From: an uncultured Amylibacter sp.
GTDB taxonomy: Bacteria > Pseudomonadota > Alphaproteobacteria > Rhodobacterales > Rhodobacteraceae
Length of the DNA stretch: 64,000 nt
Assembly (NCBI GenBank): GCA_947497475.1
Contig: CANMGS010000001.1
Coordinates: forward strand, 930,001-994,000
Direction: 5' to 3'
Shown: positions 173-32,557 of the stretch, piece by piece
Numbering within the stretch: the first letter of the stretch is position 1
How the letters are laid out: every line of letters begins with the position of its first letter
Notes under the pieces: model-generated
The model's database searches: none
The model's input: the letters and a program-made list of their open reading frames with translations, nothing else
Told to the model about the DNA's origin: nothing
Program-made: the position numbers and the translations under genes

Positions 173-637
173 ATGGAACTTACGGAAATTCTCGTAGCAG
201 ACGCAGTGCATTATGCACAAAGCGCATCTAGCAAGAAGCGGCTTCTTCAGAAAATCTCTGAACAGGCTGCTTCCATCTATGATATGGATAGCGAGCAAGT
301 CTTTGCAGCTTTAACTGCGCGCGAAGCTTTGGGCACAACGGGTGTAGGCCGCGGTGTAGCTATTCCGCATGCACGGTTTGAAAACCTTGACCGTGTTGTT
401 GGTTTATTCACACGACTAGAAAAACCGTTGGATTATGATTCAATGGATCATCAGCCAGTGGATTTGGTTTTCACTTTGCTTGCACCACAAAAAGAAGGCG
501 CAGACCATCTGAAAGCTCTAGCACTGGTTTCTAGGACATTACGAGATGAGAGTGTTTGTTCAAAACTACGCTCAAACCAAAATGTTCAAGCGATCTTTTC
601 TATCTTAGTGGAAAGTAAATCATCTCAGGCCGCTTAA
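173..637 (+). CDS. ptsN: PTS IIA-like nitrogen regulatory protein PtsN (EIIA-Ntr)
   Basis: A 154-residue protein of normal length for the EIIA-Ntr family, the terminal phosphocarrier of the nitrogen PTS (PtsP-NPr-PtsN), a regulatory rather than sugar-transporting chain. The phospho-acceptor is His66 in the motif GVAIPHAR; the later stretch DLVFTLLAPQKEGADHLKAL is typical of the fold. The protein is cytoplasmic; in other proteobacteria its phosphorylation state modulates potassium transport, sensor kinases and carbon/nitrogen balance. It follows hpf by 29 bp and is probably co-transcribed with it. The stop codon shares TTAA with the stop of the convergent sulfotransferase gene (4-bp overlap). 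Confidence 0.92.
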   Translation: MELTEILVADAVHYAQSASSKKRLLQKISEQAASIYDMDSEQVFAALTAREALGTTGVGRGVAIPHARFENLDRVVGLFTRLEKPLDYDSMDHQPVDLVFTLLAPQKEGADHLKALALVSRTLRDESVCSKLRSNQNVQAIFSILVESKSSQAA

Positions 638-2091
638 GAGCGCCAAGATTTAAACCCAAAATTCATATAATCGCGAGAGTACGCTTTCGCGATTAACTCT
701 TCTACCTCGCCATCATAAACTTGCGCTATTGAAAATGCAGCCTCGTCTTCTTCAATATTACCTACAGCAATATTTGGTAAACCAAGCTGATCTTCAATAA
801 GGGTTAAAGCCGCTTTATACGTTTCCTCACGCAGTAAATAATCTGGATGTACGGCTTTTGTATAGCCACCAAGGATCGCAGATTGGCTTGCCCATGAATG
901 ATCAATGCGCGCACGTGTTTGGCCTTTTAAATTACCATTTAAAAACTTCGCAAACTTTTTGAACGCTTGGCGATAATCCTCTACATCATACCCGATGCTG
1001 TCCAACGCACCTCTATTAAGTGTTTCACATAAAGCTGAATCGGGTAACTTCACATTGTACTGTTCTGTGAGAATTTTCCGTATCCAAGGGAATCCGCTAT
1101 CGCCCGCCTGAAAGATATGTCTGTTAAATGCATCATGCGCACGAACAACTGGATGCGTTAACATCGTAAAGGAAACCCGCGTTTGATGATTTCTAAGCCA
1201 CTCAAAGACCTCTTTCTGTTTCAATCCAGAAGACAATTGACCATCACTATGTGATGACATCCAGTTTTCTAGGACGGATTGACCAAATGTGCCAATCGGT
1301 TGAAACAGTAGGGGGGCGTTATCCCCAATTATGAAATTCTTTGCTGCCGCGTGACGTTCGGGTTCATGAAACTCTGGCAAACCAGAGTCCAGAAAATTGA
1401 TGGATTTAACTTGCTCCATCATTTCTTTGTAGTTGTTTACTTTCTCTGACAAGCCCTCGGGATTTTGACGTTTTATTTTTTCTTTCAGATCATCAAGCTC
1501 TTCTTCACTTTCTAAAAAATGTGACAGGCCATTGAAAACATCTAGCTGACCTAAGTCAGTATAGGACAATTGAAACGCCGCTTGTCCCGTTTTTTGTAAA
1601 GTTGCTTTGATCTTCTTTGCAAACTCAGACAAAGTATTCACATAGGATTTAAAGCCAAGAATATCAAAATCAACTTGCGCCGTTTTGCGTTTGTGTAAGT
1701 CTGACAATTTCCATTGATCTGTTTTACGCGCAATTGCATAAGAAATATAAGAGTCTAGCGGGTTTCTCGTCAGGACAATCTTTGCACAAGTTTCATCTTC
1801 TAACACATAGTCCAACACCCTGCGATCATGATCAGAAAATAATCTAAAACCTGGCAAGTTATCATTATTCTGCGCAACCATTTTTCGGATTAGTTTAAAA
1901 GGATCTTTATCACGATCCACCGTGTCCATACCGCAAAAAGTTTCCTGATTTGGGAACCCAATAAAGCTGGGGTTAAACAGCTCACCATTACATGAAAAAC
2001 TATTGAACAGGTTTATATTTTGCTCAAATAAATTGGACCCCGTCCGCATATTCGCGAGCAATACAAAATACTTATACTTTTTTTTGGCCAT
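634..2091 (-). CDS. Two-part sulfotransferase (NodH-like)
   Basis: A 485-residue protein. Near the N terminus the segment R16-T-G-S-N20 follows a hydrophobic strand (YFVLLAN) and matches the 5'-phosphosulfate loop that binds PAPS. The segment around ARIVLTRNP-like 'CAKIVLTRNPLDSYISYA' matches the 3'-phosphate-binding strand and helix. From about residue 300 a second segment resembles another sulfotransferase half (FTMLTHPVVRAHDAFNRHIF), so the protein looks like a tandem; roseobacters have homologues of this length usually named nodulation protein NodH or sulfotransferase. Predicted role: transfer of sulfate from PAPS to a surface glycan. It is the last gene of a seven-gene minus-strand operon, and its ATG overlaps the stop of the GT14 gene by 1 bp (TAATG). 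Acceptor unknown. Confidence 0.72.
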   Translation of the reverse strand: MAKKKYKYFVLLANMRTGSNLFEQNINLFNSFSCNGELFNPSFIGFPNQETFCGMDTVDRDKDPFKLIRKMVAQNNDNLPGFRLFSDHDRRVLDYVLEDETCAKIVLTRNPLDSYISYAIARKTDQWKLSDLHKRKTAQVDFDILGFKSYVNTLSEFAKKIKATLQKTGQAAFQLSYTDLGQLDVFNGLSHFLESEEELDDLKEKIKRQNPEGLSEKVNNYKEMMEQVKSINFLDSGLPEFHEPERHAAAKNFIIGDNAPLLFQPIGTFGQSVLENWMSSHSDGQLSSGLKQKEVFEWLRNHQTRVSFTMLTHPVVRAHDAFNRHIFQAGDSGFPWIRKILTEQYNVKLPDSALCETLNRGALDSIGYDVEDYRQAFKKFAKFLNGNLKGQTRARIDHSWASQSAILGGYTKAVHPDYLLREETYKAALTLIEDQLGLPNIAVGNIEEDEAAFSIAQVYDGEVEELIAKAYSRDYMNFGFKSWRS

Positions 2092-3791
2092 TATCTAACA
2101 ACATAAGGTCGGTTCACTGCTTTTTCTGCCTCTTTAGGGGCCTGTTTCTTTTTCTTACTCGGCTTATAAGACAACGATATACCATTTTTTTTCAATTTGC
2201 GAACCACTGAATCCAATTTTGAAATGTCGGCAAGTTCGGGAATTTCAATGGGTCTATACCCAGCTTGCGGATCAAGAACTTTCAAAGCGGATTGCAAGAT
2301 GATACCAGGGGTATTAAGCGCATCAGACAAAGAAAAAATAGTGTAATTCTCAGCCTTTTTCTTTTCCAAAACCTTCAGGAATGCTTGTTCTCTTGCTTGC
2401 AGAGTCCGTGCATTCATAATTTTACCTTTTAATTTTACCTCGGAATTAGCAACATCTAAAAGCCAAGCTTCTTTAATTACAACAATATGAGCATGCTTAT
2501 CCCTTGTCAAAACAGGTATAATTTTTTGCACATCTGTCACATCAAACTGAAACGCTAATGATGGGTTATCTTTTTCACTCCATATAAAATTACTTAAGAA
2601 GCTACGTGGATTAGCATCACGCAATTTAGCATTGGCCGTTATGTTTCCCTTGAGCAATGCAATCTTTTTTCGAAAAGTAAACTTACGACGCGCAAAGAGA
2701 TTACCATAAACATTCAGGCCTTTTTCATCATGCGCCCAAGATTGAAAATCCTTAAATAGAAACTTATAGCCTACTAAGACACCGAAATCCCGCTTCGAAA
2801 CACCAGAGTTTTCCCTAAAATCACTTGGATATCGACCCTGTAAAAAACGGCCTTCCCCACCAGAAAGACGAAGCTTTCTAGCTTTAGAAAACTTTTCACT
2901 AAAGGCATCGTCATTAGCTTTTGATATTGGATAGTTTTTCCGGTTATCTGAAAGTAATTCTCGATATAATTTCACAGAACCAGGCCAGACTTTCCGAACA
3001 AAAAATGCACTCGTCATTGGCAAATCATCTAAATGATCATCGTAAAATAGAAACGGCTTACCCTCTGAATCAAATGCAAAAAATGTCAGCGACATAGATT
3101 TTACATGATCGGAATGATTACGCACTAAGGATTGAAAATAAGATTCATCAGGAATCCAACATTGTGAAAAATATTGATCATTTAACTTCCTGTTTGGGTC
3201 TTTAATAATATTCTTTAGAGTATTGGACGTTAAGCACCACCATTGTGCACCCATATGTGGTGAAATATTATCGGGGATTTTACGTTTTACTTTAAAAAAG
3301 CGCTGTAAATCTACGAGGCGATCAAAAACATATCTATGTTTGCGCCATGAAAATGGAAAGAACATTGTGAAGCGTTCTTTGTCTAGCCCGCCCTTAACCC
3401 ATTTCTTATCTTCCACTGAAAAGGACTCAATGAAATCGGTACCTTCATGGCGATTCAAAAACGCTTTTAATTGATTCAATGGTCGCACAGGTAAACAAGA
3501 TCCGCTTGCCAAAAAGACATTTGTAACATCAGGATGTGCATTCAAAAGAGCGTCTGCAGCATTTAAAGTTGCCTTAACAATCGAAAATTGCCCCCAGCCA
3601 CATTTTTCACGCTTAGGAAAAACAACATTATCAAAATGATTAAGCGACTCGACTAATGCCTTCACTTCGTTTGCATTCGCACTTTTGTCGATATGCAAAC
3701 TTACTGGACAGTCATTCTTTGCAAGAAAGCGAACCAATTGGGTTGTCCTGTGCAAATCTTGATGTGCTAATATGATAAATCCAAGCTTCAT
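2091..3791 (-). CDS. GT14 core-2/I-branching-type glycosyltransferase with C-terminal extension
   Basis: About 566 residues. The first ~270 residues match the core-2/I-branching beta-1,6-N-acetylglucosaminyltransferase family (GT14): start KLGFIILAHQD, then SLHIDKSAN, FLASGSCLPVRP and a WIPDESYFQSL motif holding the likely catalytic acidic residue. The C-terminal half is a roseobacter-type extension without a function I can name. The gene lies between another glycosyltransferase and the sulfotransferase, so it probably adds a branch residue to the glycan that is then sulfated. I place the start at the ATG at 3791, four bases after the upstream stop, because the protein then begins directly with the family's first strand; a GTG at 3809 would add six residues and overlap the upstream gene. 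Confidence 0.75.
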   Translation of the reverse strand: MKLGFIILAHQDLHRTTQLVRFLAKNDCPVSLHIDKSANANEVKALVESLNHFDNVVFPKREKCGWGQFSIVKATLNAADALLNAHPDVTNVFLASGSCLPVRPLNQLKAFLNRHEGTDFIESFSVEDKKWVKGGLDKERFTMFFPFSWRKHRYVFDRLVDLQRFFKVKRKIPDNISPHMGAQWWCLTSNTLKNIIKDPNRKLNDQYFSQCWIPDESYFQSLVRNHSDHVKSMSLTFFAFDSEGKPFLFYDDHLDDLPMTSAFFVRKVWPGSVKLYRELLSDNRKNYPISKANDDAFSEKFSKARKLRLSGGEGRFLQGRYPSDFRENSGVSKRDFGVLVGYKFLFKDFQSWAHDEKGLNVYGNLFARRKFTFRKKIALLKGNITANAKLRDANPRSFLSNFIWSEKDNPSLAFQFDVTDVQKIIPVLTRDKHAHIVVIKEAWLLDVANSEVKLKGKIMNARTLQAREQAFLKVLEKKKAENYTIFSLSDALNTPGIILQSALKVLDPQAGYRPIEIPELADISKLDSVVRKLKKNGISLSYKPSKKKKQAPKEAEKAVNRPYVVR

Positions 3792-3795
3792 AAAA

Positions 3796-4809
3796 TCACG
3801 CCCAACCACCGCGTGACATTAAGCCAAGCTCTTCTAATTGTTGCCAGTCTTTGTATCTTACCGAATGCCTCGTCCACATTTCCTCATTTGTTGCAGCATA
3901 TTCTCTGTATTCACGGCTGGCAGCATAGTGTTCTTTGCGTTCTAATTCTTCTGTAACTTTATCAGAAAACGTACTTAAAAATTTCGTGTGCATTAAACAT
4001 CCGCAAATGTTTTGCCCACCCGTCGTATCATAGACAATGTTTAAACGGCGCGGAAGAATACTGTGTGTTGAGCCAACATATACATTTCCACGCGCCCATT
4101 TAACCAACGGTATTTTATTTAAAGATGGTGCAATTTCAGGCTTATCTTTAAAGAAAATACGCTGACGCACGCCACCTTGAATCCACAGATTGCGATATTT
4201 GGGATTACGCTCTGCGCTGTAATTTCCAGAATCGAAAAACGGAGCTGTACGCATTGGATTCTTTCCTTCAGCGCATGTGGCGTCTTTTATATTACCTTTA
4301 GGATACATATCGATCATTAATGCTCCAAAAGATTTCGTAGACGATAAATCCAACCAATCTGTTAACGCCTTTAAGGGCCTCGCATCGCAATGCGGGTAAA
4401 CAAAGAATTCATCCACATCGACAACCAAAACCCAGTGTCCAACGGCATATTTAGATTTCAAACCGTTTAACCAATCAACGCCAAAGTTTGATCGTTTATA
4501 GCTCTTATCTGTCGTCCAAAGCGAAACATCTGGCTCATTTTCAAGGTATTCACGGCCACCGTCATCAGATCCATTATCCACACAAAAGAAATGATTAACG
4601 CCAAGGCGACGGTAGTACTCTAAGAAAAACTTTAGTCTCGGTTTTTCATTACGAAAGGTAGTGAATAAAAAAATATCGTCAGGCTTAGTTTCCGAACTGC
4701 GATCGACAATACAGTCTAGCTCCCGTCTTTTACGTAAAGACCGAATTCGCCTGCGTTTGCGTTCTATGCGCAATTTATATCTGGACCACATGCCCATATT
4801 TAAACCCAT
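3796..4809 (-). CDS. Family 2-type glycosyltransferase (GT-A fold)
   Basis: A 337-residue protein with a basic N terminus (about 30 residues rich in Arg/Lys) followed by a GT-A-like domain: FTTFRNEKPRLKFFLEYYRRLG, then FFCVDNGSDDGG, and VVDVDEFF, which contains the DxD metal/nucleotide-sugar motif. This pattern is characteristic of the glycosyltransferase family 2 variant (Glyco_tranf_2_4 type) that occurs in roseobacter polysaccharide loci. It is probably cytoplasmic or membrane-associated through the basic N terminus. Donor and acceptor sugars cannot be read from sequence. It sits 5 bp after the GT4 gene and 4 bp before the GT14 gene, so translation of the three is probably coupled. Confidence 0.75.
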   Translation of the reverse strand: MGLNMGMWSRYKLRIERKRRRIRSLRKRRELDCIVDRSSETKPDDIFLFTTFRNEKPRLKFFLEYYRRLGVNHFFCVDNGSDDGGREYLENEPDVSLWTTDKSYKRSNFGVDWLNGLKSKYAVGHWVLVVDVDEFFVYPHCDARPLKALTDWLDLSSTKSFGALMIDMYPKGNIKDATCAEGKNPMRTAPFFDSGNYSAERNPKYRNLWIQGGVRQRIFFKDKPEIAPSLNKIPLVKWARGNVYVGSTHSILPRRLNIVYDTTGGQNICGCLMHTKFLSTFSDKVTEELERKEHYAASREYREYAATNEEMWTRHSVRYKDWQQLEELGLMSRGGWA

Positions 4810-4814
4810 ACAAT

Positions 4815-6038
4815 CTACTTACTCTCATATTCCCCATAAACATGGCGAAAATGTGCACTCCATGTAGGAATTTTGAAATTATCTACGTTTTTTTTATGCG
4901 ATACATTCCATTTATCGCTTTGTTGTAGAATCTCAAGGATTTGTGCTGCCCATACATTTGTATCGTTGGGTAACATATGTGCCTTTTCACCAAGAAGCTC
5001 TTTAAATACAGAAATATCAGAGCAAAGCACTGGAATTTTCAAAGCAAGTGCCTCAATCGCTGGCAGGCCATAGCCTTCTACAATGCTTGGAAACAGCAAA
5101 GCAGTGCTAGCGTTTAACATGTCATTTAAATCATCATCATTAAGATCATTATATTCAAATATCTTTGTTCCAAACATGGGTGACTTGGAAAGCCTTTCGA
5201 AAAAGGAATGCATTTGCCAACCCCGTTTTCCAACAACATTCAAAACAGGCATCTGATCTGGCGTGAGTTTTTCAGAAAGCAGTGCCCAAACATCAAGCAA
5301 TAACACATGATTTTTACGTGGCTCAATAGTGCCCAAAATCATGAACTGCGGAGGTTTTGATTTTTTCACATTTGTATCCGTGAAACTTACGTCAACACCA
5401 AGATAGGCAACAACATATGACACGGTATTTGGCCAGTCAGCAAAATATGTTTGAACACGTGACTTAGTATACTCTGAATTGCAAATCACCTCGTCTGCAT
5501 AGGTAGCAACCGCTTGCATCTTTACTAAGAAGTCCTGCGGGGTCTGAGGTTTGCAATATTCAGGGAAATCCAGCGGAATCATATCGTGAATCATTATACG
5601 TATATCTTCGCAACCAGCTTTTTTTAGAGCTGACAAAAAGCCGCCTGATAGATTGCTGTGGCCAACATTTGTATATTCAAACCCATTGGTAAAACACTGC
5701 GATAGCCCAGCAGCAGTATTTGCTTTGTTTAATGCGGTTGCTCGTTTACGGACAAAGCTTTGCGCACGCCTGCGAGACTTGTTCAATTTTAAGCGTAAAG
5801 CATCTTTTATACCAATAGATGAAGATAAAGAATTGCCAAAATCAGCCAATACAAATTGCTGCATAGCTTCTGCATTTAATACAAAGTACCCATCAGATAA
5901 TTTTGCCAGAAAAGCAGTCTTTGGGAATCTCTTTAAGAATTCACATATATAGGCACGTTCAACGCGATCTATTCCTGTTGGATGTCCGACGCCAACACGT
6001 GAAATTGTTCTTGTGATATCCAAAACGCGGTACTTCAT
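4815..6038 (-). CDS. Family 4-type glycosyltransferase (GT-B fold)
   Basis: A 407-residue GT-B-fold protein. The N terminus (VLDITRTISR, then HPTGIDRVE) is typical of a roseobacter glycosyltransferase found beside galU. The C-terminal half shows the glycosyl transferases group 1 domain: ILGTIEPRKNH, VVGKRGW, and LFPSIVEGYGLPAIEALAL with the E-x7-E signature, the second Glu contacting the nucleotide-sugar donor. It would transfer a sugar from an NDP-sugar to the growing glycan on the cytoplasmic side of the inner membrane. It starts 39 bp after galU, whose UDP-glucose product may supply this or the other transferases. Linkage specificity is unknown. Confidence 0.8.
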   Translation of the reverse strand: MKYRVLDITRTISRVGVGHPTGIDRVERAYICEFLKRFPKTAFLAKLSDGYFVLNAEAMQQFVLADFGNSLSSSIGIKDALRLKLNKSRRRAQSFVRKRATALNKANTAAGLSQCFTNGFEYTNVGHSNLSGGFLSALKKAGCEDIRIMIHDMIPLDFPEYCKPQTPQDFLVKMQAVATYADEVICNSEYTKSRVQTYFADWPNTVSYVVAYLGVDVSFTDTNVKKSKPPQFMILGTIEPRKNHVLLLDVWALLSEKLTPDQMPVLNVVGKRGWQMHSFFERLSKSPMFGTKIFEYNDLNDDDLNDMLNASTALLFPSIVEGYGLPAIEALALKIPVLCSDISVFKELLGEKAHMLPNDTNVWAAQILEILQQSDKWNVSHKKNVDNFKIPTWSAHFRHVYGEYESK

Positions 6039-6077
6039 TCTACTGAAGTACCGCTAATATTTTGGTAAAGCTACTAA

Positions 6078-6971
6078 CTATTGCGCAGCCTTTTGCATTG
6101 CAACAGTTTCGACCATGAAATCCATCAGATCATCGCGCAATTCTGGGCGCTCTAAAGCAAATGCAATTGTTGCCTGAAGGAAACCAGATTTTGACCCGCA
6201 ATCATATCTTTGGCCATCAAAGCGGAAACCAAACACATCTGATCCATTTTCAATTTCCATAGCAATCGCATCTGTTAATTGAATTTCGCCACCAGCACCC
6301 TTTTTCAAAGTGGATACATTTCTCAAAACATCTGGTGTTAAAATATACCGACCAATAACAGCAAGGTTAGAAGGTGCGTCTTCAGGCTCTGGTTTCTCAA
6401 CCATCCCATTAATCTTTAGCAATGAACCCATATCTTCAGCAACATCCAGCAAACCATAGGCTGATGCTTTGCTTTCTGGCACTTCCATTGCCGCAACCAT
6501 ACACCCGCCAGTATTTTCATAAGCTTCAACCATTTGCTTGAGACATGGTTTTTCACCAGCGATAACATCATCAGGCAGAATAACGGCAAATGGTTCATTC
6601 GCAATCAAACGTCTGGCACACCAAACTGCGTGACCCAATCCCAGCGCTTCACGTTGACGAACATAGGCAATTTCACCGCTGTCCATTGTGGATTGTTTAA
6701 GCTCTGCTAATAGGTCTTTTTTGTTTTTCTTACGCAAAGATTGTTCTAGCTGCGGTGCCCCATCAAAATAATCCTCTAATGCACCTTTGCCGCGAGACGT
6801 CACAAAAATAAATTCTTTGATGCCAGCCTCACGCGCTTCATCAATCGCATATTGGATCAAAGGGCGATCAACCAATGACAAAATCTCTTTTGGAATGGAT
6901 TTCGTCGCTGGTAGAAACCGTGTCCCCAATCCAGCCACTGGAAAAATCGCTTTAGTTACTTTTCTGCGCAT
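6078..6971 (-). CDS. galU: UTP-glucose-1-phosphate uridylyltransferase
   Basis: A 297-residue protein of normal GalU length. It makes UDP-glucose from UTP and glucose-1-phosphate, the activated precursor for glycosyltransferases, UDP-galactose and UDP-glucuronate. The nucleotide-binding signature GLGTRFLPATKSIPKEILSL lies near residues 14-33, and GMVEKPEPEDAPSNLAVIGRYIL is the family's sugar-phosphate-side motif. YDCGSKSGFLQA near the C terminus is also typical. It is embedded in the glycosyltransferase operon, with 46 bp to the upstream GT2 gene and 39 bp to the downstream GT4 gene, so it is likely dedicated at least partly to this glycan pathway. Confidence 0.93.
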   Translation of the reverse strand: MRRKVTKAIFPVAGLGTRFLPATKSIPKEILSLVDRPLIQYAIDEAREAGIKEFIFVTSRGKGALEDYFDGAPQLEQSLRKKNKKDLLAELKQSTMDSGEIAYVRQREALGLGHAVWCARRLIANEPFAVILPDDVIAGEKPCLKQMVEAYENTGGCMVAAMEVPESKASAYGLLDVAEDMGSLLKINGMVEKPEPEDAPSNLAVIGRYILTPDVLRNVSTLKKGAGGEIQLTDAIAMEIENGSDVFGFRFDGQRYDCGSKSGFLQATIAFALERPELRDDLMDFMVETVAMQKAAQ

Positions 6972-7017
6972 TCAGCTTACCTCTAGGTTTTTATAGCCTT
7001 TTAGGCTTTATTTTTAA

Positions 7018-8286
7018 TTATTTTATGACTTTAGAAAGCCTTTTAAAACGGAAAAAACTAATTTTCTTTATCTTCCTAGTTTCTTCCAAAGAGCTCACTT
7101 CATTTATACCTCTATTTATAATTGTATCTAGCTTAAAATAAGGTTGTGACCTGTCAGATTTTCCAAATAAGCCACCAGTTTGCACCCAAAAGCCTCGTAT
7201 ATCAAAGTATCTGCGGTGAAATAATGCGGTGAAACTCCACCGCATTACAGTACAAGGAATATTATTAGATGCACTATCTAAAGCCAAATTTACCATTTCT
7301 CTTCTTGATATAAGGCTGCCCACAATAGCTTCACTCTCAGAAAGCTTTTTTGAGTCTTTATTAAATACAGAAAACTTCGCATGTTGCTTGTTCGCCTTAA
7401 TTAATCTCTTTTCGCAAGATAGATCTTGCCCTTCTTTAAAACCCATTTGCAAAGTCGATAAGAGATTATGAATAGCTTTGGGCTCTATAAACCCATCAAC
7501 CATTAAAGATATAAGTCTTTTGTGCTGTTCCTTTTCAAAAGAAGTAAGCGCAGATTTATGTTCACCGTCCCCAATTTGTTTTTTACAGAAATAAGCTTTG
7601 CTTTTGCCTTCAGCATAAAGGCTTCTTGGGACGCGACTTTCTGTGCGACGGTCACTTTCTTCGAAGCCGTGCTGCACTTCCGCGTTTGGAACAATTGCTG
7701 TGTCCCATCCAGCAAGAGCCGCGCGAACACAAACATCTGTCTCATCTAAATAAAACTGAAAATTCTCATCAAAACCGCCAATTTCAAACAACATTGACTT
7801 GCGAAACATACAATTTGTTCCTTGGACTTTCGCAAAATATCCATCCTCAGGCAACGCTACTTGAAATGCCGCTCCGTTTTCTATTTCAAGCGGTTTATCT
7901 ATGCCGAAAACATTAACTTGCAGAGCTTTCCATTGAAAATCTATACCATTTCTTCCACGAACAAACCCACCAGAAAGGCCAATATTTTCTGATTCAAACG
8001 GTGCTATTAATTTTTCCAACCATGTCGGCTCTGGAACGGCATCATCATCACAAAAAGCAACAAGATCACCTGCTGACGCCTCAATACCTAAATTACGAGC
8101 CGCAGAAATATTAGGTTCATCAAAATACAAATACTTAATATGATCGTTGTCAGCATGATCTATATTACTAACAACGATAACTTCAAAATTTCGATAAAAC
8201 TGAAACCGCAGTGCTGTTAAAAGGCGTGCAAGCCCTTCGGGACGATCCCGGCTTACAATTACAACACTGACTTTCGGCTCAGACAT
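7018..8286 (-). CDS. Family 2 glycosyltransferase with C-terminal extension
   Basis: A 422-residue protein. Residues 1-230 form a GT2 (GT-A) domain: VSVVIVSRDRPEGLARLL, an ISAARNLGIEASAGD segment, CDDDAVPEPTWL containing the metal-binding acidic cluster, and GGFDENFQFYLDETDVCVRA with the likely catalytic acidic region. The remaining ~190 residues are charged and not recognised. It is likely a cytoplasmic sugar transferase building the glycan. Its ATG overlaps the cysQ stop by one base (TAATG), indicating translational coupling. Parts of the C-terminal coding sequence look more AT-rich than the neighbouring galU and cysQ, judged by eye. Confidence 0.75.
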   Translation of the reverse strand: MSEPKVSVVIVSRDRPEGLARLLTALRFQFYRNFEVIVVSNIDHADNDHIKYLYFDEPNISAARNLGIEASAGDLVAFCDDDAVPEPTWLEKLIAPFESENIGLSGGFVRGRNGIDFQWKALQVNVFGIDKPLEIENGAAFQVALPEDGYFAKVQGTNCMFRKSMLFEIGGFDENFQFYLDETDVCVRAALAGWDTAIVPNAEVQHGFEESDRRTESRVPRSLYAEGKSKAYFCKKQIGDGEHKSALTSFEKEQHKRLISLMVDGFIEPKAIHNLLSTLQMGFKEGQDLSCEKRLIKANKQHAKFSVFNKDSKKLSESEAIVGSLISRREMVNLALDSASNNIPCTVMRWSFTALFHRRYFDIRGFWVQTGGLFGKSDRSQPYFKLDTIINRGINEVSSLEETRKIKKISFFRFKRLSKVIK

Positions 8287-9092
8287 TAAGCATTCTGCAA
8301 ATCAATTCCTGGGGCATACGCAATGAAAAACGGGTTCTCAAAGATATTTTTACCATAGGTTAATGGTTCATGGTTATCAAATCGAACAACCTTACCACCA
8401 GCACCCTGTAAAACAGCCTGACCTGCGGCCGTATCCCATTCCATCGTGCGTCCTAGTCGCGGATAAATATCTGCTTCGCCTGTTGCAACCAAACAGAATT
8501 TCAATGACGAGCCTGCACTGCGCATATCTGCAACATTGTATTTGTTAATATAATCATCTGTCGCTTGATCTCGGTGGGATTTAGAAGCTACAACAATCAG
8601 CTTTTCTTGATCTGGGTTTGTAACGCTAATAGCATGGCGGGTCCCGACCGTATCGTCAGCAAACGGGCCCGTTTCTTCAAAAGAAACACCATTTTCATCC
8701 GTAATAAAAAGACGGTCTTTTGCAGGGGCATATACAACACCAAGCGTTGGTATTCCTTTTTCAACATAAGCAATATTCACAGTGAAGTCGCCACGCTTGT
8801 GAATGAATTCCTTTGTGCCATCCAAAGGATCAACAATGAGGAAAGTGTCAGCTGAAGCAGTATGCGTATCGCTTTGTTCTTCTGTTACAATCACAACACC
8901 AGGAAACGCTTTCGATAACCCATCATAAATGATTTTATCAGCCGTCTCATCTGCAATGGTAACAGGGCTTTCATCTGATTTTGTTTTCACTTCGAAATCA
9001 TCGGCATTATAAATTTCCATAATTGCACGCCCAGCTTGCAAAGAAAGGCTGCGCATCTCAGAACATAAAAGAGTTTTATTAATTTCGGTCAT
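8286..9092 (-). CDS. cysQ: 3'(2'),5'-bisphosphate nucleotidase
   Basis: A 268-residue member of the inositol monophosphatase-like, lithium-sensitive phosphatases. The metal-binding motif D88-P-L-D91-G-T-K-E-F is present, preceded by the Glu pair in VTEEQSD and followed by WDTAAGQAVL. CysQ hydrolyses 3'-phosphoadenosine 5'-phosphate (PAP) to AMP and phosphate. PAP is released by PAPS-dependent sulfotransferases and inhibits them, so placement as first gene of an operon ending in a sulfotransferase is functionally meaningful. The operon promoter should lie in 9093-9219, shared with the divergent permease gene. Confusion with other IMPase-family enzymes is possible, but the length and the DGTKEFI motif favour CysQ. 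Confidence 0.88.
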   Translation of the reverse strand: MTEINKTLLCSEMRSLSLQAGRAIMEIYNADDFEVKTKSDESPVTIADETADKIIYDGLSKAFPGVVIVTEEQSDTHTASADTFLIVDPLDGTKEFIHKRGDFTVNIAYVEKGIPTLGVVYAPAKDRLFITDENGVSFEETGPFADDTVGTRHAISVTNPDQEKLIVVASKSHRDQATDDYINKYNVADMRSAGSSLKFCLVATGEADIYPRLGRTMEWDTAAGQAVLQGAGGKVVRFDNHEPLTYGKNIFENPFFIAYAPGIDLQNA

Positions 9093-9219: not shown

Positions 9220-10023
9220 ATGACAAAAACATTCTTGGGAACACTGAAGTTTCTTTCATTGCTTTATTATTCAACGGTCAGAGATATTCGCCAATCTGAC
9301 GGTAATGCTTTGCGTGGATTATTTATGGAAATCATGCAGTTGGTTATCATGTTGGCCGTCTTTTATGTAATGATCGACCTTTTAGGTGTGCGCGGCGCAG
9401 CGGTACGCGGAAGTTTCATATTGTTTTTAATCACAGGAATTTTCCTGTTTATGACACACATTCGGGCCGTTGGAAAAATCTCAGGCTCAGGTAACGCATC
9501 AAATCCAATGCTTAAACACGCACCAGTCACGACACTGCTTTTGATTTTATCAGCAGCATTTTCCGCATTGTACATTCAGTTCTTTGCGATGGCTGCAGTT
9601 CTTATTTTTGCACATGTCGTTATAGAACCAATTCATTTTTATGACGCCAAAGGGTTTTTTATATGCTTTGTTCTCGCTTGGGGATCAGGGGCAGCAATTG
9701 GCCTTGTGCTTTTGGCAGTATCTCCCTTTTTTCCAAAAACGGTCGGCATCATCACAACAATTTACCAACGCGCAAACATGGTTTTTAGTGGGAAAATGGT
9801 TCTGGCAAATACATTGCCTGGCAGCATATTGCCTGTGTTTGCCTGGAATCCATTGTTTCATGCAATCGATCAAGCCAGAGGCTATGCATTTATCAATTAC
9901 GCCCCAAAACATACCAGTTTGATGTACCCGTTTATTATCATATGTATTTTTGTCGTTATCGGCCTAATGTTGGAACATTGGGCGCGTAAATACTCATCCG
10001 AAAGCTGGGCAAGTAGGCGTTAA
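9220..10023 (+). CDS. ABC-2-type exporter permease (capsular polysaccharide/O-antigen export class)
   Basis: A 267-residue protein with about six predicted membrane segments (for example IMQLVIMLAVFYVMIDLLG, FILFLITGIFLFMTHI, TLLLILSAAFSALYIQFF and FIIICIFVVIGLMLEH). The layout and the NPLFHAIDQARGYAF segment before the last helix match the KpsM/Wzm-like ABC-2 permeases that export polysaccharide chains through the inner membrane. It is divergent from the glycan operon, whose product it may export. No ATP-binding subunit gene is present in this window, so the partner must be encoded elsewhere. The stop shares TTAA with the stop of convergent alkB. Confidence 0.75.
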   Translation: MTKTFLGTLKFLSLLYYSTVRDIRQSDGNALRGLFMEIMQLVIMLAVFYVMIDLLGVRGAAVRGSFILFLITGIFLFMTHIRAVGKISGSGNASNPMLKHAPVTTLLLILSAAFSALYIQFFAMAAVLIFAHVVIEPIHFYDAKGFFICFVLAWGSGAAIGLVLLAVSPFFPKTVGIITTIYQRANMVFSGKMVLANTLPGSILPVFAWNPLFHAIDQARGYAFINYAPKHTSLMYPFIIICIFVVIGLMLEHWARKYSSESWASRR

Positions 10024-23798: not shown

Positions 23799-24152
23799 AT
23801 GCGCAGCATTTGGTTTATCGCTGGCTGGATTTCAGTTGCCATCGGCATCGTTGGCATCGTCCTGCCTTTATTACCAACCGTTCCGCTTTTACTGCTTGCA
23901 GCAATTTGTTTTGCCAAATCATCCGACAGGGCACATGACTGGTTGATGAATCACAAAACCCTTGGTCCACCGATCCATGATTGGCAAAAAAGCGGCTCTA
24001 TCAAAAGATCGGCAAAAATTTCAGCCACAGCATGTATTGCTGCGGCTTTTATCATTTCATTATTTTTAGGCGTCGCATGGTGGGCGCTTTGTTTGCAAGC
24101 AGCTGTTTTATGCTGCGTTGCAACTTTTATTTGGAGCCGCCCAGAGGTCTAG
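23799..24152 (+). CDS. ybaN: YbaN family (DUF454) inner-membrane protein
   Basis: A 117-residue protein with an N-terminal hairpin of membrane segments (SIWFIAGWISVAIGIVGIVL, LLPTVPLLLLAAICFAKSS), a soluble stretch with HKTLGPPIHDW, and a C-terminal membrane pair (ATACIAAAFIISLFLGVAWW). LPLLPTVPLLLLAAICFA and the GPPIHDW motif are diagnostic of the DUF454/YbaN family, whose function is unknown. It begins 10 bp after hemW and its last 26 bp overlap the 3' end of convergent parB. Confidence 0.85.
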   Translation: MRSIWFIAGWISVAIGIVGIVLPLLPTVPLLLLAAICFAKSSDRAHDWLMNHKTLGPPIHDWQKSGSIKRSAKISATACIAAAFIISLFLGVAWWALCLQAAVLCCVATFIWSRPEV

Positions 24153-25050
24153 ACGATAACAACTGGCACAACGCATCAAGCTGATCCAAAGATTCATATG
24201 AAATGGTAATACCGCCACCGCCCGTACCATCTTTATGGTCAATGGAAACCTTCATATTCAAATTCGCAGCCAAATCATTTTCCAATACAACAGTATCAGC
24301 GTCTTTTTCTCTACGCGGCGCAGCACTCTTTGGCTTCGATTCGACATCTGCAGATGCACGCGCCAAACGTTCTGTTTCACGCACAGACAATCCTTTTGCC
24401 ACAACCATAGCCGCTAATTTCGACGGGTTATCCGCTGTAACCATCGCCCGCGCATGGCCTGATGACAATTGCCCGGCCCGCAACAGTGCCAAAACATCAT
24501 CTGGCAAACTCAACAAACGCAGAATATTCGCAATATGGCTGCGGCTTTTACCCAAAGCTTTCGCTAATTTTTCCTGCGTATGTCCATAACTGCCCATCAA
24601 TTGGCGAAAACCAAGCGCTTCTTCGACTGGATTCAGGTCAGAACGCTGAACATTCTCGATAATTGCGACTTCTAACACCTCTGTGTCGTCCATCTCGCGG
24701 ATAATAATCGGTATATCATGCACGAGCGCGATCTGAGAGGCCCTCCAGCGACGCTCCCCAGCAATGATTTGGTACAGATTTTCGTCTTTTGGATCCGTCC
24801 GAACGATAATTGGTTGGATCACACCTTTCTCAGAAATCGAAGACGCCAGCTCTTCCAACTCTTTTTGGCCAAAATCTTGGCGAGGTTGATCTGGGTTCGG
24901 TCTGACCTTTTCAATCGGCACCACAATATCTGACTTTACAGCTGTATTTGTGCTGGATTGCTCATTTTCAGAGGTCACTTCTGGCTCAATATCTGCCATC
25001 AAAGCTGACAAACCGCGACCAAGGCCTCTTTTTTCTGGTTTTCTACTCAT
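24127..25050 (-). CDS. parB: Chromosome partitioning protein ParB (CTPase, parS-binding)
   Basis: A 307-residue chromosomal ParB. The N terminus RGLGRGLSALMAD is followed by the ParB/sulfiredoxin-type nucleotide-binding domain (RPNPDQPRQDF, and GERRWRAS, which binds CTP), the helix-turn-helix parS-binding domain (LAKALGKSRSHIANILRLLSLPDDV) and the C-terminal dimerisation domain. It loads at parS and spreads as a clamp to drive origin segregation with ParA. Three perfect parS sites lie 1.1-3.3 kb away. Its start overlaps the parA stop by 4 bp. The gene end overlaps ybaN by 26 bp. Confidence 0.97.
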   Translation of the reverse strand: MSRKPEKRGLGRGLSALMADIEPEVTSENEQSSTNTAVKSDIVVPIEKVRPNPDQPRQDFGQKELEELASSISEKGVIQPIIVRTDPKDENLYQIIAGERRWRASQIALVHDIPIIIREMDDTEVLEVAIIENVQRSDLNPVEEALGFRQLMGSYGHTQEKLAKALGKSRSHIANILRLLSLPDDVLALLRAGQLSSGHARAMVTADNPSKLAAMVVAKGLSVRETERLARASADVESKPKSAAPRREKDADTVVLENDLAANLNMKVSIDHKDGTGGGGITISYESLDQLDALCQLLSSRPLGGSK

Positions 25051-25892
25051 TTTTCTTTTAATTCCAATGGCTTATATGGTTTTTTACTATCTTCACGGCG
25101 CACAAACTCTGCTGCCAAACGTCTATAGGCGATGCTACCCCTGCTAGACTTATCATACAAGATACCAGGCAACCCATATGATGGTGCCTCGCTTAAACGC
25201 ACATTCCGCGGCACAATCGTTTCATAAACCAAAGCGCCAAGATTTTCCCGAACATCACGCTCAACTTGGCCAGAAAGGTTGTTCCGCTTATCATGCATAG
25301 TCAGTACAACCCCTTCAAAAACAAGGGTTTTATTCAAATTGTCACGAACTTCACGAACTGTTAGCATAAGCTGTGATAAACCTTCTAACGCGAAAAACTC
25401 GCACTGTAAGGGGACCAAAACAGAATTACTTGCGGCAAGCGCATTTAGCGTCAACAAATTTAATGATGGTGGGCAATCAATGATGACATATTCAATGCCT
25501 GACTGCTCTAATCGCGCACCCGCAATAGATTCTTTTAAACGCAAAAGACGGCGTCGGTCATCAACCAGCTCTACATCCGCAGAGCTTAAATCCGTTGTAG
25601 AAGGCGCTAAAAACAGGTTTTCTATGCCAGTTTGGACAATCGCATCATAAATCGGTCGCTCTTCAACCAATACATCATACATTGTCATTTTCCGGCTTTT
25701 TGCATCAACACCAAGACCCGTAGAAGCGTTTCCTTGCGGATCAAAGTCAATAATAAGGGTTTTTCGGCCAGCAAGAGCCAAAGCAGCCCCAAGATTAATG
25801 GCCGTTGTTGTTTTACCGACACCACCTTTTTGGTTAGCTACAGATATGATTTTAGGGTTTTTTGTCACTTTTTCCTGCTCAGACACGTTCAA
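25047..25892 (-). CDS. parA: Chromosome partitioning ATPase ParA
   Basis: A 281-residue ParA/Soj-type ATPase. The deviant Walker A motif is KGGVGKTT at residues 22-29, with the signature lysine; TLIIDFDPQGNASTGLG follows, and YVIIDCPPSLNLLTLNAL is the Walker B region. ParA forms a nucleoid-bound gradient that ParB-parS complexes follow during origin segregation. It lies between rsmG (14-bp overlap at its start) and parB (4-bp overlap), so expression is tightly coupled to the rsmG/mnmG/mnmE cluster near the origin. Confidence 0.97.
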   Translation of the reverse strand: MNVSEQEKVTKNPKIISVANQKGGVGKTTTAINLGAALALAGRKTLIIDFDPQGNASTGLGVDAKSRKMTMYDVLVEERPIYDAIVQTGIENLFLAPSTTDLSSADVELVDDRRRLLRLKESIAGARLEQSGIEYVIIDCPPSLNLLTLNALAASNSVLVPLQCEFFALEGLSQLMLTVREVRDNLNKTLVFEGVVLTMHDKRNNLSGQVERDVRENLGALVYETIVPRNVRLSEAPSYGLPGILYDKSSRGSIAYRRLAAEFVRREDSKKPYKPLELKEK

Positions 25893-26514
25893 TATTCCAG
25901 ACTTTTAGAATTTCGCCTGCGGAATCAGAGATGCTTTTTGTTGTCTCTGCTTGAAACCGCCACGATTCTTGTGCGTTTTTTACTTCAATAGCACAGCCTT
26001 GGCCTTTCAAGAACAGACAAAAAGCGTCCTGTTTTAAAAATTTTCCAGACATTTCAAGTAATTTATCAACGGATGCTAATGCGCGGGCGGAAACAACATC
26101 TGCATTTATATCTGGGGCGTTTTCTATACGAGATGTATGAACTGTCGTGTTTAAAGATGTTTCACGTGAAACATTTCTAAGAAAAGCGCACTTACGGGCA
26201 TCGCTTTCAACCATGTGAAATTGCATCTCTGGTGCCTCATGTTTTGCCATAATTGCCAAAACAAGGGCAGGGAAACCCCCACCAGAGCCCAAATCCACCC
26301 AATTTTCTACAGATTCAGGCCTATGAGTCCAAACTTGAGCGGAATCTAGAATATGACGCGCCCAAAGCTCATTAATCGTAGATTTGCTGACCAAATTGAT
26401 GGTTTTATTCCACTTCACTAGCAATTCAGCCAACTTTTCTAGATCCGCCATTGTTTCACGTGAAACATTTAGATCATCTTGCAAAATAGATTTAGCAGTA
26501 TTTTCGGATATCAT
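25879..26514 (-). CDS. rsmG: 16S rRNA (guanine-527-N7)-methyltransferase RsmG (GidB)
   Basis: A 211-residue SAM-dependent methyltransferase that modifies G527 in the 530 loop of 16S rRNA. The SAM site is [17 protein letters not shown], preceded by [19 protein letters not shown], all typical of GidB. The tetrapeptide-plus motif N-V-S-R-E-T occurs twice (near residues 16-21 and in [11 protein letters not shown]) because each copy is encoded by a perfect parS site. Its start overlaps the mnmG stop by 4 bp and its end overlaps parA by 14 bp. Confidence 0.96.
26158..26173. promoter_or_regulatory. parS: parS centromere site 1 (inside rsmG)
   Basis: TGTTTCACGTGAAACA is a perfect 16-bp palindrome identical to the consensus bacterial parS site bound by ParB. 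It lies in the coding sequence of rsmG, where it encodes the second N-V-S-R-E-T segment. It is about 5.5 kb from the proposed origin. Confidence 0.93.
26452..26467. promoter_or_regulatory. parS: parS centromere site 2 (inside rsmG)
   Basis: A second perfect TGTTTCACGTGAAACA, 294 bp from site 1 and in the same reading frame of rsmG, where it encodes the first N-V-S-R-E-T segment near the N terminus. Confidence 0.93.
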
Positions 26515-28382
26515 GCGCGCCTTTTAGACTGGGCAAGTCTAATCTTTCCAAGCAAAAGCGTTAATGCAGCAGGGGTCATCCCATCAATACGGCCTGCTTG
26601 CGCAAGCGTAGAAGGTTGAACCGTGGTTAGTTTTTGCTGCAACTCATTAGAAAGCCCCGGAATCCCTTTATAAGAAAAGCCTTCAGGTATTTTCAGGTTT
26701 TCATCACGACGCATCGCCGCCACATCGTTTTTCTGGCGATCAATGTAATGGACATACATCGCATCTTTTTCGACCTGCTGGGCGATTTCATCATCCAAAT
26801 CAGCCAATTCAGGCCATATTTTCGATAAAACACCCAAATCAATGTCCTTAAAGGACAATAAATCCAGCGCCTTACGCTTTACGCCGTCCTTATTGATCTT
26901 GATGTCATATTTAGCCGCCTCGGTCGGTGAAAGTGATTTATCTGACAATAAATCATTGGCTGCATGAAGCTTTTCCATCTTGGTTTCAAAGGCCATTTTG
27001 CGCGCTTCTTTCACCAAACCAACTTCAATACCCTTCTTTGTCAGGCGCTGATCTGCATTATCAGCCCGCAAAGACAGGCGATATTCGGCACGTGATGTAA
27101 ACATGCGATAGGGCTCTGTAACACCACGGGTAGTAAGATCATCGATCATAACCCCAATATATGCCTCTGCGCGGTCAAAATAGACGGGTTCTTTACCCAG
27201 CACCTTACGCGCCGCATTCAAACCAGCAACCAATCCTTGCGCGGCTGCTTCTTCATATCCTGTGGTACCATTTATTTGGCCAGCCAGATAAAGGCCTGAA
27301 ACTTCTTTTAATTCCAAAGTCGCCTTCAGCGCACGCGGATCAATGTAATCATATTCAATCGCATAGCCCGGTTGCAGGATTTTCACATTCTCCAAACCCA
27401 CAATAGACGTCACATAGGCCTCTTGCACATCAACAGGCAGGGATGTCGAAATACCGTTCGGATAGATCGTGTGATCGTTCAAACCTTCAGGTTCTAGGAA
27501 AATCTGATGCGAATCTTTATCCGCAAACCGTACGATCTTATCTTCGATAGACGGGCAATAACGTGGGCCCACGCCATCAATATGCCCACCATACATCGCG
27601 GAGCGTGATAGGTTTTTTTCTATAATTTCATGAGTTTTCGCGTTTGTGTGGGTGATTCCACACTCTACCTGATCCACAAAAGCTTTCTTATGCAGGAAGG
27701 AAAACAACACAGGATCATCATCCGCTGGCTGTGTTTCCAAGCCTTCCCAATTGATTGTACGACCATCAAGACGCGGAGGTGTGCCCGTTTTCAAACGACC
27801 CATAGGCAAATTAAACCCATCAAGACGTTCTGCCAAAGGAATGGCAGGGGCATCACCCATACGCCCACCAGGCGTTGCAACATCGCCCACGTGGATCACA
27901 CCGCGCAAGAATGTCCCTGTGGTTAGAACAACAGCACCTGCATTAACTTCCGATCCATCTTTCAGGATAACACCCGAAACCACATCATTGGTTTGAATAA
28001 GATCAGCAACCTCAGCTTCAATCACATCCAAACCATCTGTGTTTTTAAACTCTTCCTGCATCGCCGCGCGGTACAATGCGCGGTCTGCTTGGGTGCGTGG
28101 CCCTTGAACAGCAGGGCCTTTGCGACGGTTCAGCATGCGGAACTGGATGCCTGCCTTATCAGCAACACGCCCCATAACTCCGTCAAGCGCATCAATCTCG
28201 CGCACCAAGTGCCCCTTACCAAGACCGCCAATCGCAGGGTTACAGGACATCTCACCAATGGTGGAAAACTTATGCGTGATCAGGGCGGTTTGCGCACCCG
28301 CACGCCACGCGGCCTGTGCTGCATCCGCACCCGCGTGTCCGCCACCGATTACAATTACGTCGTAATGTTTCACGTGAAACAA
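26511..28382 (-). CDS. mnmG: tRNA uridine-5-carboxymethylaminomethyl modification protein MnmG (GidA)
   Basis: A 623-residue FAD-dependent protein that, with MnmE, installs (carboxymethyl)aminomethyl groups at U34 of certain tRNAs. The FAD-binding motif [12 protein letters not shown] is near residues 11-22; [23 protein letters not shown] and the second signature [15 protein letters not shown] are present, as is the C-terminal MnmE-interacting helical domain. The first codons (M-F-H-V-K-H) are read from a parS site that overlaps the start codon. It overlaps rsmG by 4 bp and lies 15 bp after mnmE, placing both partners in one operon. Confidence 0.97.
28366..28381. promoter_or_regulatory. parS: parS centromere site 3 (at the mnmG start)
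   Basis: A third perfect TGTTTCACGTGAAACA, about 1.9 kb from site 2 and about 3.4 kb from the proposed origin. It covers codons 1-6 of mnmG on the minus strand, so ParB loading here could also affect mnmG expression. Confidence 0.93.
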
Positions 28383-31102: not shown

Positions 31103-31555
31103 TTAAAATGGGCGGGCTATAACCATGACGACAATGATAATCATCAAAAGCGTCGGTACCTCGTTAGCAATTCTGTAACCTTTACCACTTAAACGTGGTT
31201 GACCCTTTGCTAATAACTTTCGCTCTTTTGACAACCAGCCATGAAATGCAGACATTAAAATAACCATCAATGCTTTAACCCAAGGCCAACCTTCTGACCA
31301 ATCAATGATACCCGGTGTCGAAACCAATAAGATACCACATAACCATGTGACGACCATTGCAGGATTTATAATCCGTTTTAAAAGAAGCAATTCCCATTTC
31401 TCTACTGTTTCTTTGGGATTAAAATACTCTGGTTTTGTTTCTACGTGATACACGAACAACCGTGGAAGATAGAGCATACCTGCCATCCAAGAGATAACGG
31501 CCAAAATGTGAAGTGTTTTGATCCATGGGTATAGGGCGCTTAGTATATCAGTCAT
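31103..31555 (-). CDS. hemJ: Protoporphyrinogen oxidase HemJ
   Basis: A 150-residue integral membrane protein that oxidises protoporphyrinogen IX to protoporphyrin IX, the penultimate step of haem synthesis, in bacteria lacking HemY/HemG. The family start is clear (WIKTLHILAVISWMAGMLYLPRLFVYH) and contains conserved His16 and His37. Several membrane helices follow, with LMVILMSAFHGWLSKE and EVPTLLMIIIVVMVIARPF near the end. It is the origin-proximal gene of the leftward cluster. Many related genomes carry hemE and hemH here as well; they are not seen in this position. Confidence 0.93.
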   Translation of the reverse strand: MTDILSALYPWIKTLHILAVISWMAGMLYLPRLFVYHVETKPEYFNPKETVEKWELLLLKRIINPAMVVTWLCGILLVSTPGIIDWSEGWPWVKALMVILMSAFHGWLSKERKLLAKGQPRLSGKGYRIANEVPTLLMIIIVVMVIARPF

Positions 31556-31660
31556 TTCTCTCGATCCGTTTTATAGAACCCTATAATATATATTATATAT
31601 AGAAAGGTAGTTGTTTGATGTAGGGACACTGGAACGCAGGGATAAAATTACTATCCACTA

Positions 31661-31740
31661 AAAATATAAAGTAAATTTAATAAAGATAAATTATACATTA
31701 TCTAATTAATATGTTTTAAATCATATACTTAAAAGAATAA
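31661..31740. other. AT-rich candidate DNA-unwinding element
   Basis: Eighty consecutive bases with 8 G/C (10%), counted by hand, on one flank of the DnaA-box cluster. Position and composition fit a duplex-unwinding element. The next tract upstream (31583-31601) is also nearly pure A/T. Confidence 0.55.
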
Positions 31741-31744
31741 AACC

Positions 31745-31753
31745 TGTGGAAAA
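31745..31753 (-). promoter_or_regulatory. DnaA box (consensus)
   Basis: Reads TTTTCCACA on the minus strand, matching TTWTNCACA. It lies directly beside the AT-rich tract. Confidence 0.6.
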
Positions 31754-31769
31754 CATGAGGATTGATTAT

Positions 31770-31787
31770 TCATTCACATAATTCACA
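31770..31787 (+). promoter_or_regulatory. Two abutting DnaA-like 9-mers
   Basis: TCATTCACA at 31770-31778 and TAATTCACA at 31779-31787 follow one another with no spacer, each one base away from TTATTCACA. Tandem weak boxes of this kind are typical of cooperative DnaA loading sites. Confidence 0.5.
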
Positions 31788-31810
31788 ACACTAATTTGTA
31801 AGTTATAGGT

Positions 31811-31819
31811 TGTGGGTAA
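31811..31819 (-). promoter_or_regulatory. DnaA box (one mismatch)
   Basis: Reads TTACCCACA on the minus strand, one mismatch from TTATCCACA. Confidence 0.45.
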
Positions 31820-31910
31820 AAAATTGCGGATCGGGTTTAAAATACCAAGTTTTCCCGAAATCTTAAAAAACCGTGAATTCTATTAACTTCTCCCGAATTT
31901 AATGTACAAG

Positions 31911-31919
31911 TTATGCACA
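31911..31919 (+). promoter_or_regulatory. DnaA box (consensus)
   Basis: TTATGCACA, a full match to TTWTNCACA, 42 bp before the maf start. Confidence 0.6.
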
Positions 31920-31933
31920 CCCCTTAGGGATAG

Positions 31934-31942
31934 TTTTTCACA
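31934..31942 (+). promoter_or_regulatory. DnaA box (consensus)
   Basis: TTTTTCACA, a full match to TTWTNCACA, 18 bp before the maf start codon and close to its SD, so DnaA binding here could also affect maf transcription. Confidence 0.5.
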
Positions 31943-31960
31943 AGCTTTTAAGGATGATCT

Positions 31961-32557
31961 GTGACTTCTGTGATATTGGCATCTGGATCTGAAATCCGTG
32001 CAAACCTTCTTAGAAATGCTGGCGTGACCTTTGATGTTAAGGTGGCGCGCATTGATGAGGCAGCGATTATTGCATCCTTATGGCAAGAGAATGCTAAGCC
32101 ACATGATGTGGTGGATACACTTGCAGAGTATAAGGCGGCACGTATTGCTGCGAAACACCCAGAAAGCTTGGTGATTGGCTGTGATCAGATTTTAGTTTGT
32201 GATAAAAAGATTTATGAAAAGGTCGACAGCCTGGATGCAGCCCGCGAAAAACTAATGTCTTTGCGGGGTAAGGCCCATCAATTGATGTCTGCCGTGGTGA
32301 TTTTCGAAGATGGTAAACCTGTCTGGCGCCAAATTGGGCGGGCTCAACTTATTATGCGTGATTTTTCAGATGAGTTTATCGACACATATCTGGAGCGAAA
32401 TGGCACAGATATTCTAAGTTCCGTTGGATGTTATAAATTAGAGGAAGAGGGCGCACAGCTGTTCACCCGTATCCAAGGGGATTACTTCACAATCCTTGGA
32501 ATACCTTTATTAGAAGTCTTGGGGCTTTTACGCACACGTGGAGTATTAGAAAACTGA
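31961..32557 (+). CDS. maf: Maf-like nucleotide pyrophosphatase
   Basis: A 198-residue Maf/HAM1-related nucleoside triphosphate pyrophosphatase that acts on modified or non-canonical nucleotides. The start VILASGSEIRANLLRNAGV matches the family's N-terminal motif, with conserved ASGS and Arg; VIGCDQIL corresponds to the acidic/Gln active-site strand and SVGCYKLEEEG to the C-terminal motif. The start codon is GTG at 31961, supported by AAGGA at 31950-31954 six bases upstream. It is the first rightward gene from the proposed origin and overlaps aroE by one base. Confidence 0.88.
   Translation: MTSVILASGSEIRANLLRNAGVTFDVKVARIDEAAIIASLWQENAKPHDVVDTLAEYKAARIAAKHPESLVIGCDQILVCDKKIYEKVDSLDAAREKLMSLRGKAHQLMSAVVIFEDGKPVWRQIGRAQLIMRDFSDEFIDTYLERNGTDILSSVGCYKLEEEGAQLFTRIQGDYFTILGIPLLEVLGLLRTRGVLEN

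Follow-up and report, generated by a model that had tools for sequence, protein, structure and literature searches.

Where does replication begin on the chromosome of this Amylibacter-like member of the Rhodobacteraceae, and does the short gap separating hemJ from maf hold its origin, as the original prediction proposed? The window analyzed here, a stretch of 64 kb, comprises bases 930001-994000 of contig C1 (1,694,908 bases) in a genome of 3.02 Mb and 11 contigs (G000). The hemJ-maf gap occupies window positions 31556-31960 (405 bp; C1:961.6-962.0 kb) and has 28.9% G+C, against 44.8% for the whole window. It carries the window's densest cluster of DnaA boxes and coincides with the minimum of cumulative third-position G minus C. 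Its boxes, its AT tract, the neighboring parS sites and the strand-corrected skew all speak for the prediction, and the gap is very probably the chromosomal oriC. What was observed directly, and is described below, comprises the sequence parts and how they cluster relative to background, the parS sites, the switch in skew, and the conservation.

Organization of the hemJ-maf gap

The gap is bounded on the left by hemJ (31103-31555, minus strand), whose match to TIGR00701 is barely over the cut-off (139.3 vs 138.05 bits), and on the right by maf (31961-32557, plus strand), which is over the cut-off of TIGR00172. The gene order around it agrees with the prediction: parB (24127-25050; TIGR00180 over cut-off), a gene for a parA-type ATPase (25047-25892), rsmG, mnmG, mnmE, rho and hemJ lie to the left on the minus strand, and maf, aroE, coaE and dnaQ to the right on the plus strand. 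The parA-type product matched ParA/MinD-type families, with none of the 25 matches listed over its own cut-off. The flip in strand polarity is also present, the nearest seven genes on the left being all minus and the nearest four on the right all plus, and polarity becomes mixed farther right, beyond maf-aroE-coaE-dnaQ.

At DnaA origins, DnaA binds its boxes, opens an AT-rich tract and lets helicases load. A probable DNA unwinding element was found at 31659-31742, where the 80-mers starting at 31659-31663 contain 8 G/C bases, as predicted; they are the window minimum, no other 80-mer of the 64 kb falling to 8 or below, and those with 12 or fewer start solely within 31600-31699. DnaA box-like sites were defined as TTATNCACA with at most one mismatch, and full boxes as TTWTNCACA. 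The six sites announced to the right of the AT tract, three of them full, were all recovered: the full box TTTTCCACA (31745-31753, minus strand), which adjoins and faces the AT tract, the one-mismatch sites TCATTCACA (31770-31778, plus), TAATTCACA (31779-31787, plus) and TTACCCACA (31811-31819, minus), and the full boxes TTATGCACA (31911-31919, plus) and TTTTTCACA (31934-31942, plus).

Because TTWTNCACA occurs 388 times in the genome (both strands) and the reversed pattern 290 times, single boxes mean little and only clustering counts. Among 2000 single-base shuffles, none of the shuffled gaps had six or more box-like sites (mean 0.80) and one had three or more full boxes (mean 0.063). The rest of the window contains at most three one-mismatch boxes per 250 bp, the gap being the densest place. 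In 20 sampled 20-kb stretches of C1 the maxima were three one-mismatch boxes and one full box per 250 bp, and in seven further C1 stretches the one-mismatch maximum ranged from two to four, the four lying in 994-1014 kb. Box density, suggested as a check of the prediction, is thus higher in the gap than in the background of the window and of the 27 sampled C1 stretches. Of contigs C1 to C11, the sampling for skew and box clusters took in parts of C1 and C3.

In the portion of PMC8287927 used here, the basal unwinding system consists of a DnaA box and DnaA-trios. Similarly, box 31745 is oriented toward the AT tract, and four NTN triplets come after it on its strand; however, a run of equal length occurred in about half of the shuffled flanks (1531 of 3000), so there is no evidence for DnaA-trios beside this box.

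We take TGTTTCACGTGAAACA to be the parS motif. Perfect matches occur at 26158-26173 and 26452-26467, both inside rsmG, and at 28366-28381, at the start of mnmG. These are the only three in the whole genome and all lie 3.2-5.4 kb left of the gap, the next-best place, with two mismatches, being on C2. When up to one mismatch was allowed, all 34 sites in 12 of 12 genomes were no more than 6 kb away from where maf starts. The parS sites, absent from the original prediction, add independent support for an origin at the gap.

The gap could instead simply hold the divergent promoters for hemJ and maf, with boxes that regulate these two genes or titrate DnaA while initiation takes place elsewhere. In an eight-sequence alignment its most conserved part is indeed a block at the hemJ end (31586-31648), with 24 of 63 columns invariant and no DnaA box inside; 31600-31639 has 13 invariant columns of 40, whereas each of the nine remaining 40-column bins has 0-8. 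Part of the block, GTTGTTTG, is present in 14 of 78 named loci, somewhere in the 700 bp that precede maf. Among the boxes, the one at 31811 has a full or one-mismatch box at the equivalent alignment place in six of the eight sequences, and TACAAGTTAT, around the start of box 31911, is common to seven of eight. The promoter reading also draws on a tandem of two perfect boxes elsewhere, at C2:318365, which is common to the compared genome G018, and on a cluster scan that covers little of the genome outside C1. Against it, box number, AT tract, parS and a sharp compositional switch coincide at the gap, and the 27 sampled C1 stretches reach at most four one-mismatch boxes per 250 bp. A promoter without initiation is therefore very unlikely.

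A search of four genomes for rival clusters, as tight pairs of exact boxes in two arrangements, used patterns that miss the gap under study and were thus too strict to count against a rival. It returned one tandem pair each in the genome under study (on C2), G018 and G003, and everted pairs at C1:695869 and, in G018, at the gap itself. The C2 tandem, TTATCCACAAAGTTATCCACA, lies about 0.3 kb past the end of an ORF and is found at L279:1865-1885 (G000:C2:318365-318385) and in L280 (G018:C1:1072148); it is possibly a DnaA-regulated promoter or a titration site. The tandem in G003, at 2227353, is similar, its correspondence with the C2:318365 place not being established.

Strand composition of contig C1

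GC skew was sampled over 594 kb of the 1.69 Mb of C1. Left of the window, raw skew was negative in 10 of 12 stretches, the exceptions being 80-100 and 160-180 kb; it was negative in every sampled stretch from 240 kb to the gap, and evenly so in extra stretches over 820-930 kb. Right of the window it was positive in seven of eight stretches (1.04-1.54 Mb), with 1580-1600 kb negative. Over 962-1034 kb, the first 70 kb or so right of the gap, it stayed near zero, turning positive only from about 1040 kb, and the raw cumulative minimum inside the window fell near 52 kb and not at the 31.7-kb gap. Because gene strand and replication are mixed in raw GC skew, we dropped it as sole origin criterion in favor of a strand-corrected skew, the average of two third-codon-position values, one computed from the forward ORFs and one from the reverse ORFs.

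Corrected skew ranged from -0.107 to -0.270 in eight stretches over 800-962 kb, switched across the gap from -0.236 to +0.073 (962-978 kb) and rose to +0.133 at 978-994 kb; it was +0.185 at 1040-1060 kb and positive in seven stretches beyond. A gene-by-gene count used 58 window ORFs hand-picked from 108, the likelier gene being kept where ORFs overlapped. Of the 27 selected on the left side of the gap, 26 show an excess of C over G at third positions, read on the plus strand and irrespective of the strand of the ORF, and those with C excess form an unbroken run from 634 to 31555. To the right, 20 of 31 are positive and 11 have C > G. The running third-position G minus C over the 58 ORFs reaches its minimum of -851 at hemJ, in a near tie with -850 at 50242. 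The GC-skew check proposed with the prediction was thus borne out, on the sampled part of C1, by the corrected sign change and the gene-by-gene minimum at the gap, the raw minimum being less exact.

The 8-mer GGGNAGGG, which we take to be a fork-polar motif, was on the minus strand in 24 of 24 cases in the 12 stretches sampled to the left of the window and on the plus strand in seven of eight in the eight stretches to the right; within the window left of the gap, all three copies have the plus-strand orientation, opposite to that expected. GGTTGG, counted as a polar motif, gave a mixed picture.

The interval of weak skew would also fit an origin farther right by as much as some 80 kb, in C1:994-1040 kb, beyond which raw skew is firmly positive. 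At 994-1034 kb raw skew is -0.02 to -0.03 and corrected skew dips to -0.003 and -0.052, four one-mismatch boxes share one 250-bp stretch of 994-1014 kb, and the switch is displaced in the relatives G004 and G032. Yet corrected skew is already positive at 962-994 kb (+0.07 and +0.13), parS lies beside the gap and no sampled place in the interval matches the gap's box number, which leaves this placement extremely unlikely.

For the hemJ-maf gap, the features of a DnaA oriC occur together: a box cluster over background, an AT-rich region, a corrected-skew switch, parS and parAB nearby, and a dnaA gene in the genome (C1:819515-820861; 544.2 bits vs a cut-off of 343.9). The predicted origin is of the DnaA type, an ordinary known type, and would stand at the ancestral alphaproteobacterial position. 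From studied origins we infer DnaA binding, melting, initiation and segregation at the gap. DnaA, made from its gene about 141 kb away, would bind the six boxes, spread from box 31745 and open the AT tract that this box faces; helicases would then load and two forks depart, one through hemJ-rho-mnmE-mnmG-rsmG-parAB and the other through maf-aroE-coaE-dnaQ. Separation of the new origins would be aided by ParB bound to the three parS sites, which lie 3-6 kb left of the gap. An origin so placed fixes the start of replication, and hence the gene-dosage gradient and the assignment of arms, for this genome.

The gap in relatives and in known origins

As the original prediction stated, hemE is not beside the gap; it is located on contig C3 (C3:77941-78948). 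For COG1806, which we take to be PF03618/PpsR, no PF03618 match was found in the genome under study, and one of eight genomes searched, G033, had a match. Of 30 maf loci compared, including that of the window, 29 had upstream DNA, and 27 of these carry at least four box-like sites in the 560 bp upstream of maf, the exceptions being L024 and L030. In G033, the genome of L024, COG1806 lies between gap and maf.

According to the excerpts of PMC1914354 consulted, Cori of Caulobacter crescentus and the origin of Rickettsia prowazekii lie between hemE and COG1806, with five CtrA sites and a single IHF site in Cori. As in those descriptions, the gap studied here is intergenic, AT-rich, some 400 bp long, and has several DnaA boxes and a shift in strand composition. 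Unlike both origins, it adjoins neither hemE nor COG1806, and unlike Cori it has no mismatch-free CtrA or IHF consensus site: the CtrA motif TTAAN7TTAA has no exact match in the gap, with four one-mismatch places in AT-rich DNA, and the IHF-like WWWCAANNNNTTR, sought as exact matches only, has none there. Nor does the gap contain an exact GANTC site. Origins were predicted in 101 Rhodobacteraceae by Kopejtka et al. 2019 (PMC6699656) from DnaA boxes, a GC-disparity minimum, a local GC minimum and proximity to parAB, as given in the part of that study used here. The gap shows these features, with the one reservation that the minimum of raw skew does not fall precisely on it. The same part of the study names neither the genes flanking the predicted origins nor this genus.

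A wider comparison used 80 named maf loci, the best 80 by maf similarity, which overlap with the compared genomes; the nearest belong to Amylibacter sp. SFDW26 and other Rhodobacteraceae. The SFDW26 locus (L094) likewise has a gap of 405 bp, with six box-like sites. COG1806 was sought in them by tblastn with the L115 protein. An upstream hemJ was present in 67 loci, 54 without and 13 with COG1806; the remaining 13 had COG1806 alone (one), neither gene (nine) or ended too soon (three). Between hemJ and the next gene sought, 59 of the 67 loci had at least three box-like sites and eight had one or two. This stretch was 1.3-1.5 kb long in nine of the 67, and hemE lay inside it in all five of the long stretches scanned, the rest of the stretch carrying seven (L106), eight (L114), five (L134), three (L135) and four (L169) box-like sites. 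Of the nine loci with neither gene, four from Rhodobacterales were scanned (L146, L150, L155 and L160), and in these rho faces maf across the gap.

Three of these loci from Rhodobacterales, L106, L134 and L169, retain the order hemJ-hemE-gap-COG1806-maf, with four to seven box-like sites in the gap; the gap under study therefore corresponds to the same place as the published origins. From the gene orders compared, the hemJ-gap-maf arrangement of the window would be what remains once both hemE and COG1806 are gone. The place of the alphaproteobacterial origin would thus persist though both boundary genes leave, and hemE or COG1806 would be unreliable as origin markers in this group.

Skew in relatives and a displaced minimum

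Corrected skew across the gap went from -0.236 to -0.002 and then +0.131 in G018, from -0.130 to +0.076 in G017 and from -0.110 to +0.042 in G031. In G035, of another genus, it was -0.145 at 3.40 Mb, and the two flanks of the gap, which lies at 3.478 Mb, gave -0.010 and +0.029, placing the switch between 3.40 Mb and 0.2 Mb. The metagenome assembly G023 is a mosaic in which skew alternates in sign.

In G003, G004 and G032, the switch lies on the maf side and not at the gap. The single-contig genome G003 (loci L022 and L191-L196) has its gap at C1:206.5 kb, with five box-like sites (L022), and keeps three parS beside it. Its skew has the same sign on both sides of the gap; the minimum, about 240 kb away on the maf side, is near 3.418 Mb and stays flat as far as 3.430 Mb. 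In the orientation of the genome under study, corrected skew of G003 was -0.19 to -0.33 in four stretches 4-100 kb to the maf side, with a fifth stretch in that range, with genes on one strand only, at -0.38; five stretches over 112-184 kb were about zero. At 199 kb it was -0.24, at 212 kb -0.31 and at 227 kb -0.10, and it turned positive (+0.22) only at 247 kb. The minimum is about 5 kb from a hemC-hemE-coproporphyrinogen-oxidase cluster, and 3.400-3.453 Mb has at most two box-like sites per 300 bp. In G004, corrected skew on the maf side was -0.125 at +12 kb and -0.092 at +57 kb, then +0.066 at +117 kb; in G032, the gap lies in a flat part of the corrected skew, which was +0.137 at +210 kb.

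For G003, an inversion beside the gap was considered as the cause and rejected. The maf flank of G003 has the order and orientation of the genome under study in most sampled matches, to about 150 kb from maf, with single out-of-place matches such as G003 96868 to position 497544 of the genome under study, and because composition moves with the DNA an inversion there fails to explain the skew. In the G003 group, either initiation has moved or the skew has another cause. If initiation moved, the forks of G003 appear to cross the gap one way from a start about 240 kb off on the maf side, with smaller displacements apparent in G004 and G032. That the working origin moved within one genus while the DnaA-box cluster, AT tract and parS stayed, or that two origins are used, we consider rather unlikely; if true, origin firing and the segregation locus would have come apart, or two origins would be in use. 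The displaced minimum of G003 is the sole part of this analysis that could surprise specialists. It leaves the assignment of the origin to the hemJ-maf gap of the genome under study unchanged, because the boxes, parS and corrected skew of that genome agree.

An origin beside hemE or beside dnaA, an arrangement found in other bacteria, has a practically negligible probability here: hemE is about 5 kb from the skew minimum in G003 and near a change of skew sign in G023, but raw skew is negative in stretches on both sides of hemE in the genome under study, one-mismatch boxes number at most four per 300 bp in the sampled 120 kb of C3, hemE of G018 has positive skew to either side, hemE of G003 sits between hemC and the coproporphyrinogen oxidase gene without a box cluster, and dnaA (C1:819.5 kb) lies within an evenly negative arm. 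As an origin neighbor in the genus, hemE was accordingly rejected, by skew for the genome under study and G018 and by the missing boxes for G003. In G031, two hemE matches were over the cut-off (G031:C1:1609170 and G031:C2:35278), the better one on a small second contig that could be contamination.

Elsewhere in the window, positions 634-9092 carry a run of glycosyltransferase, nucleotidyltransferase and inositol-monophosphatase genes with about 40% G+C, below the surroundings, which is a probable surface polysaccharide cluster. At 9766-9918 on the minus strand, upstream of a gene for Hsp70 by about 1 kb, we also found a match to the Ruegeria cis2 sRNA family (Rfam RF02645; 52.1 bits vs a gathering threshold of 50).
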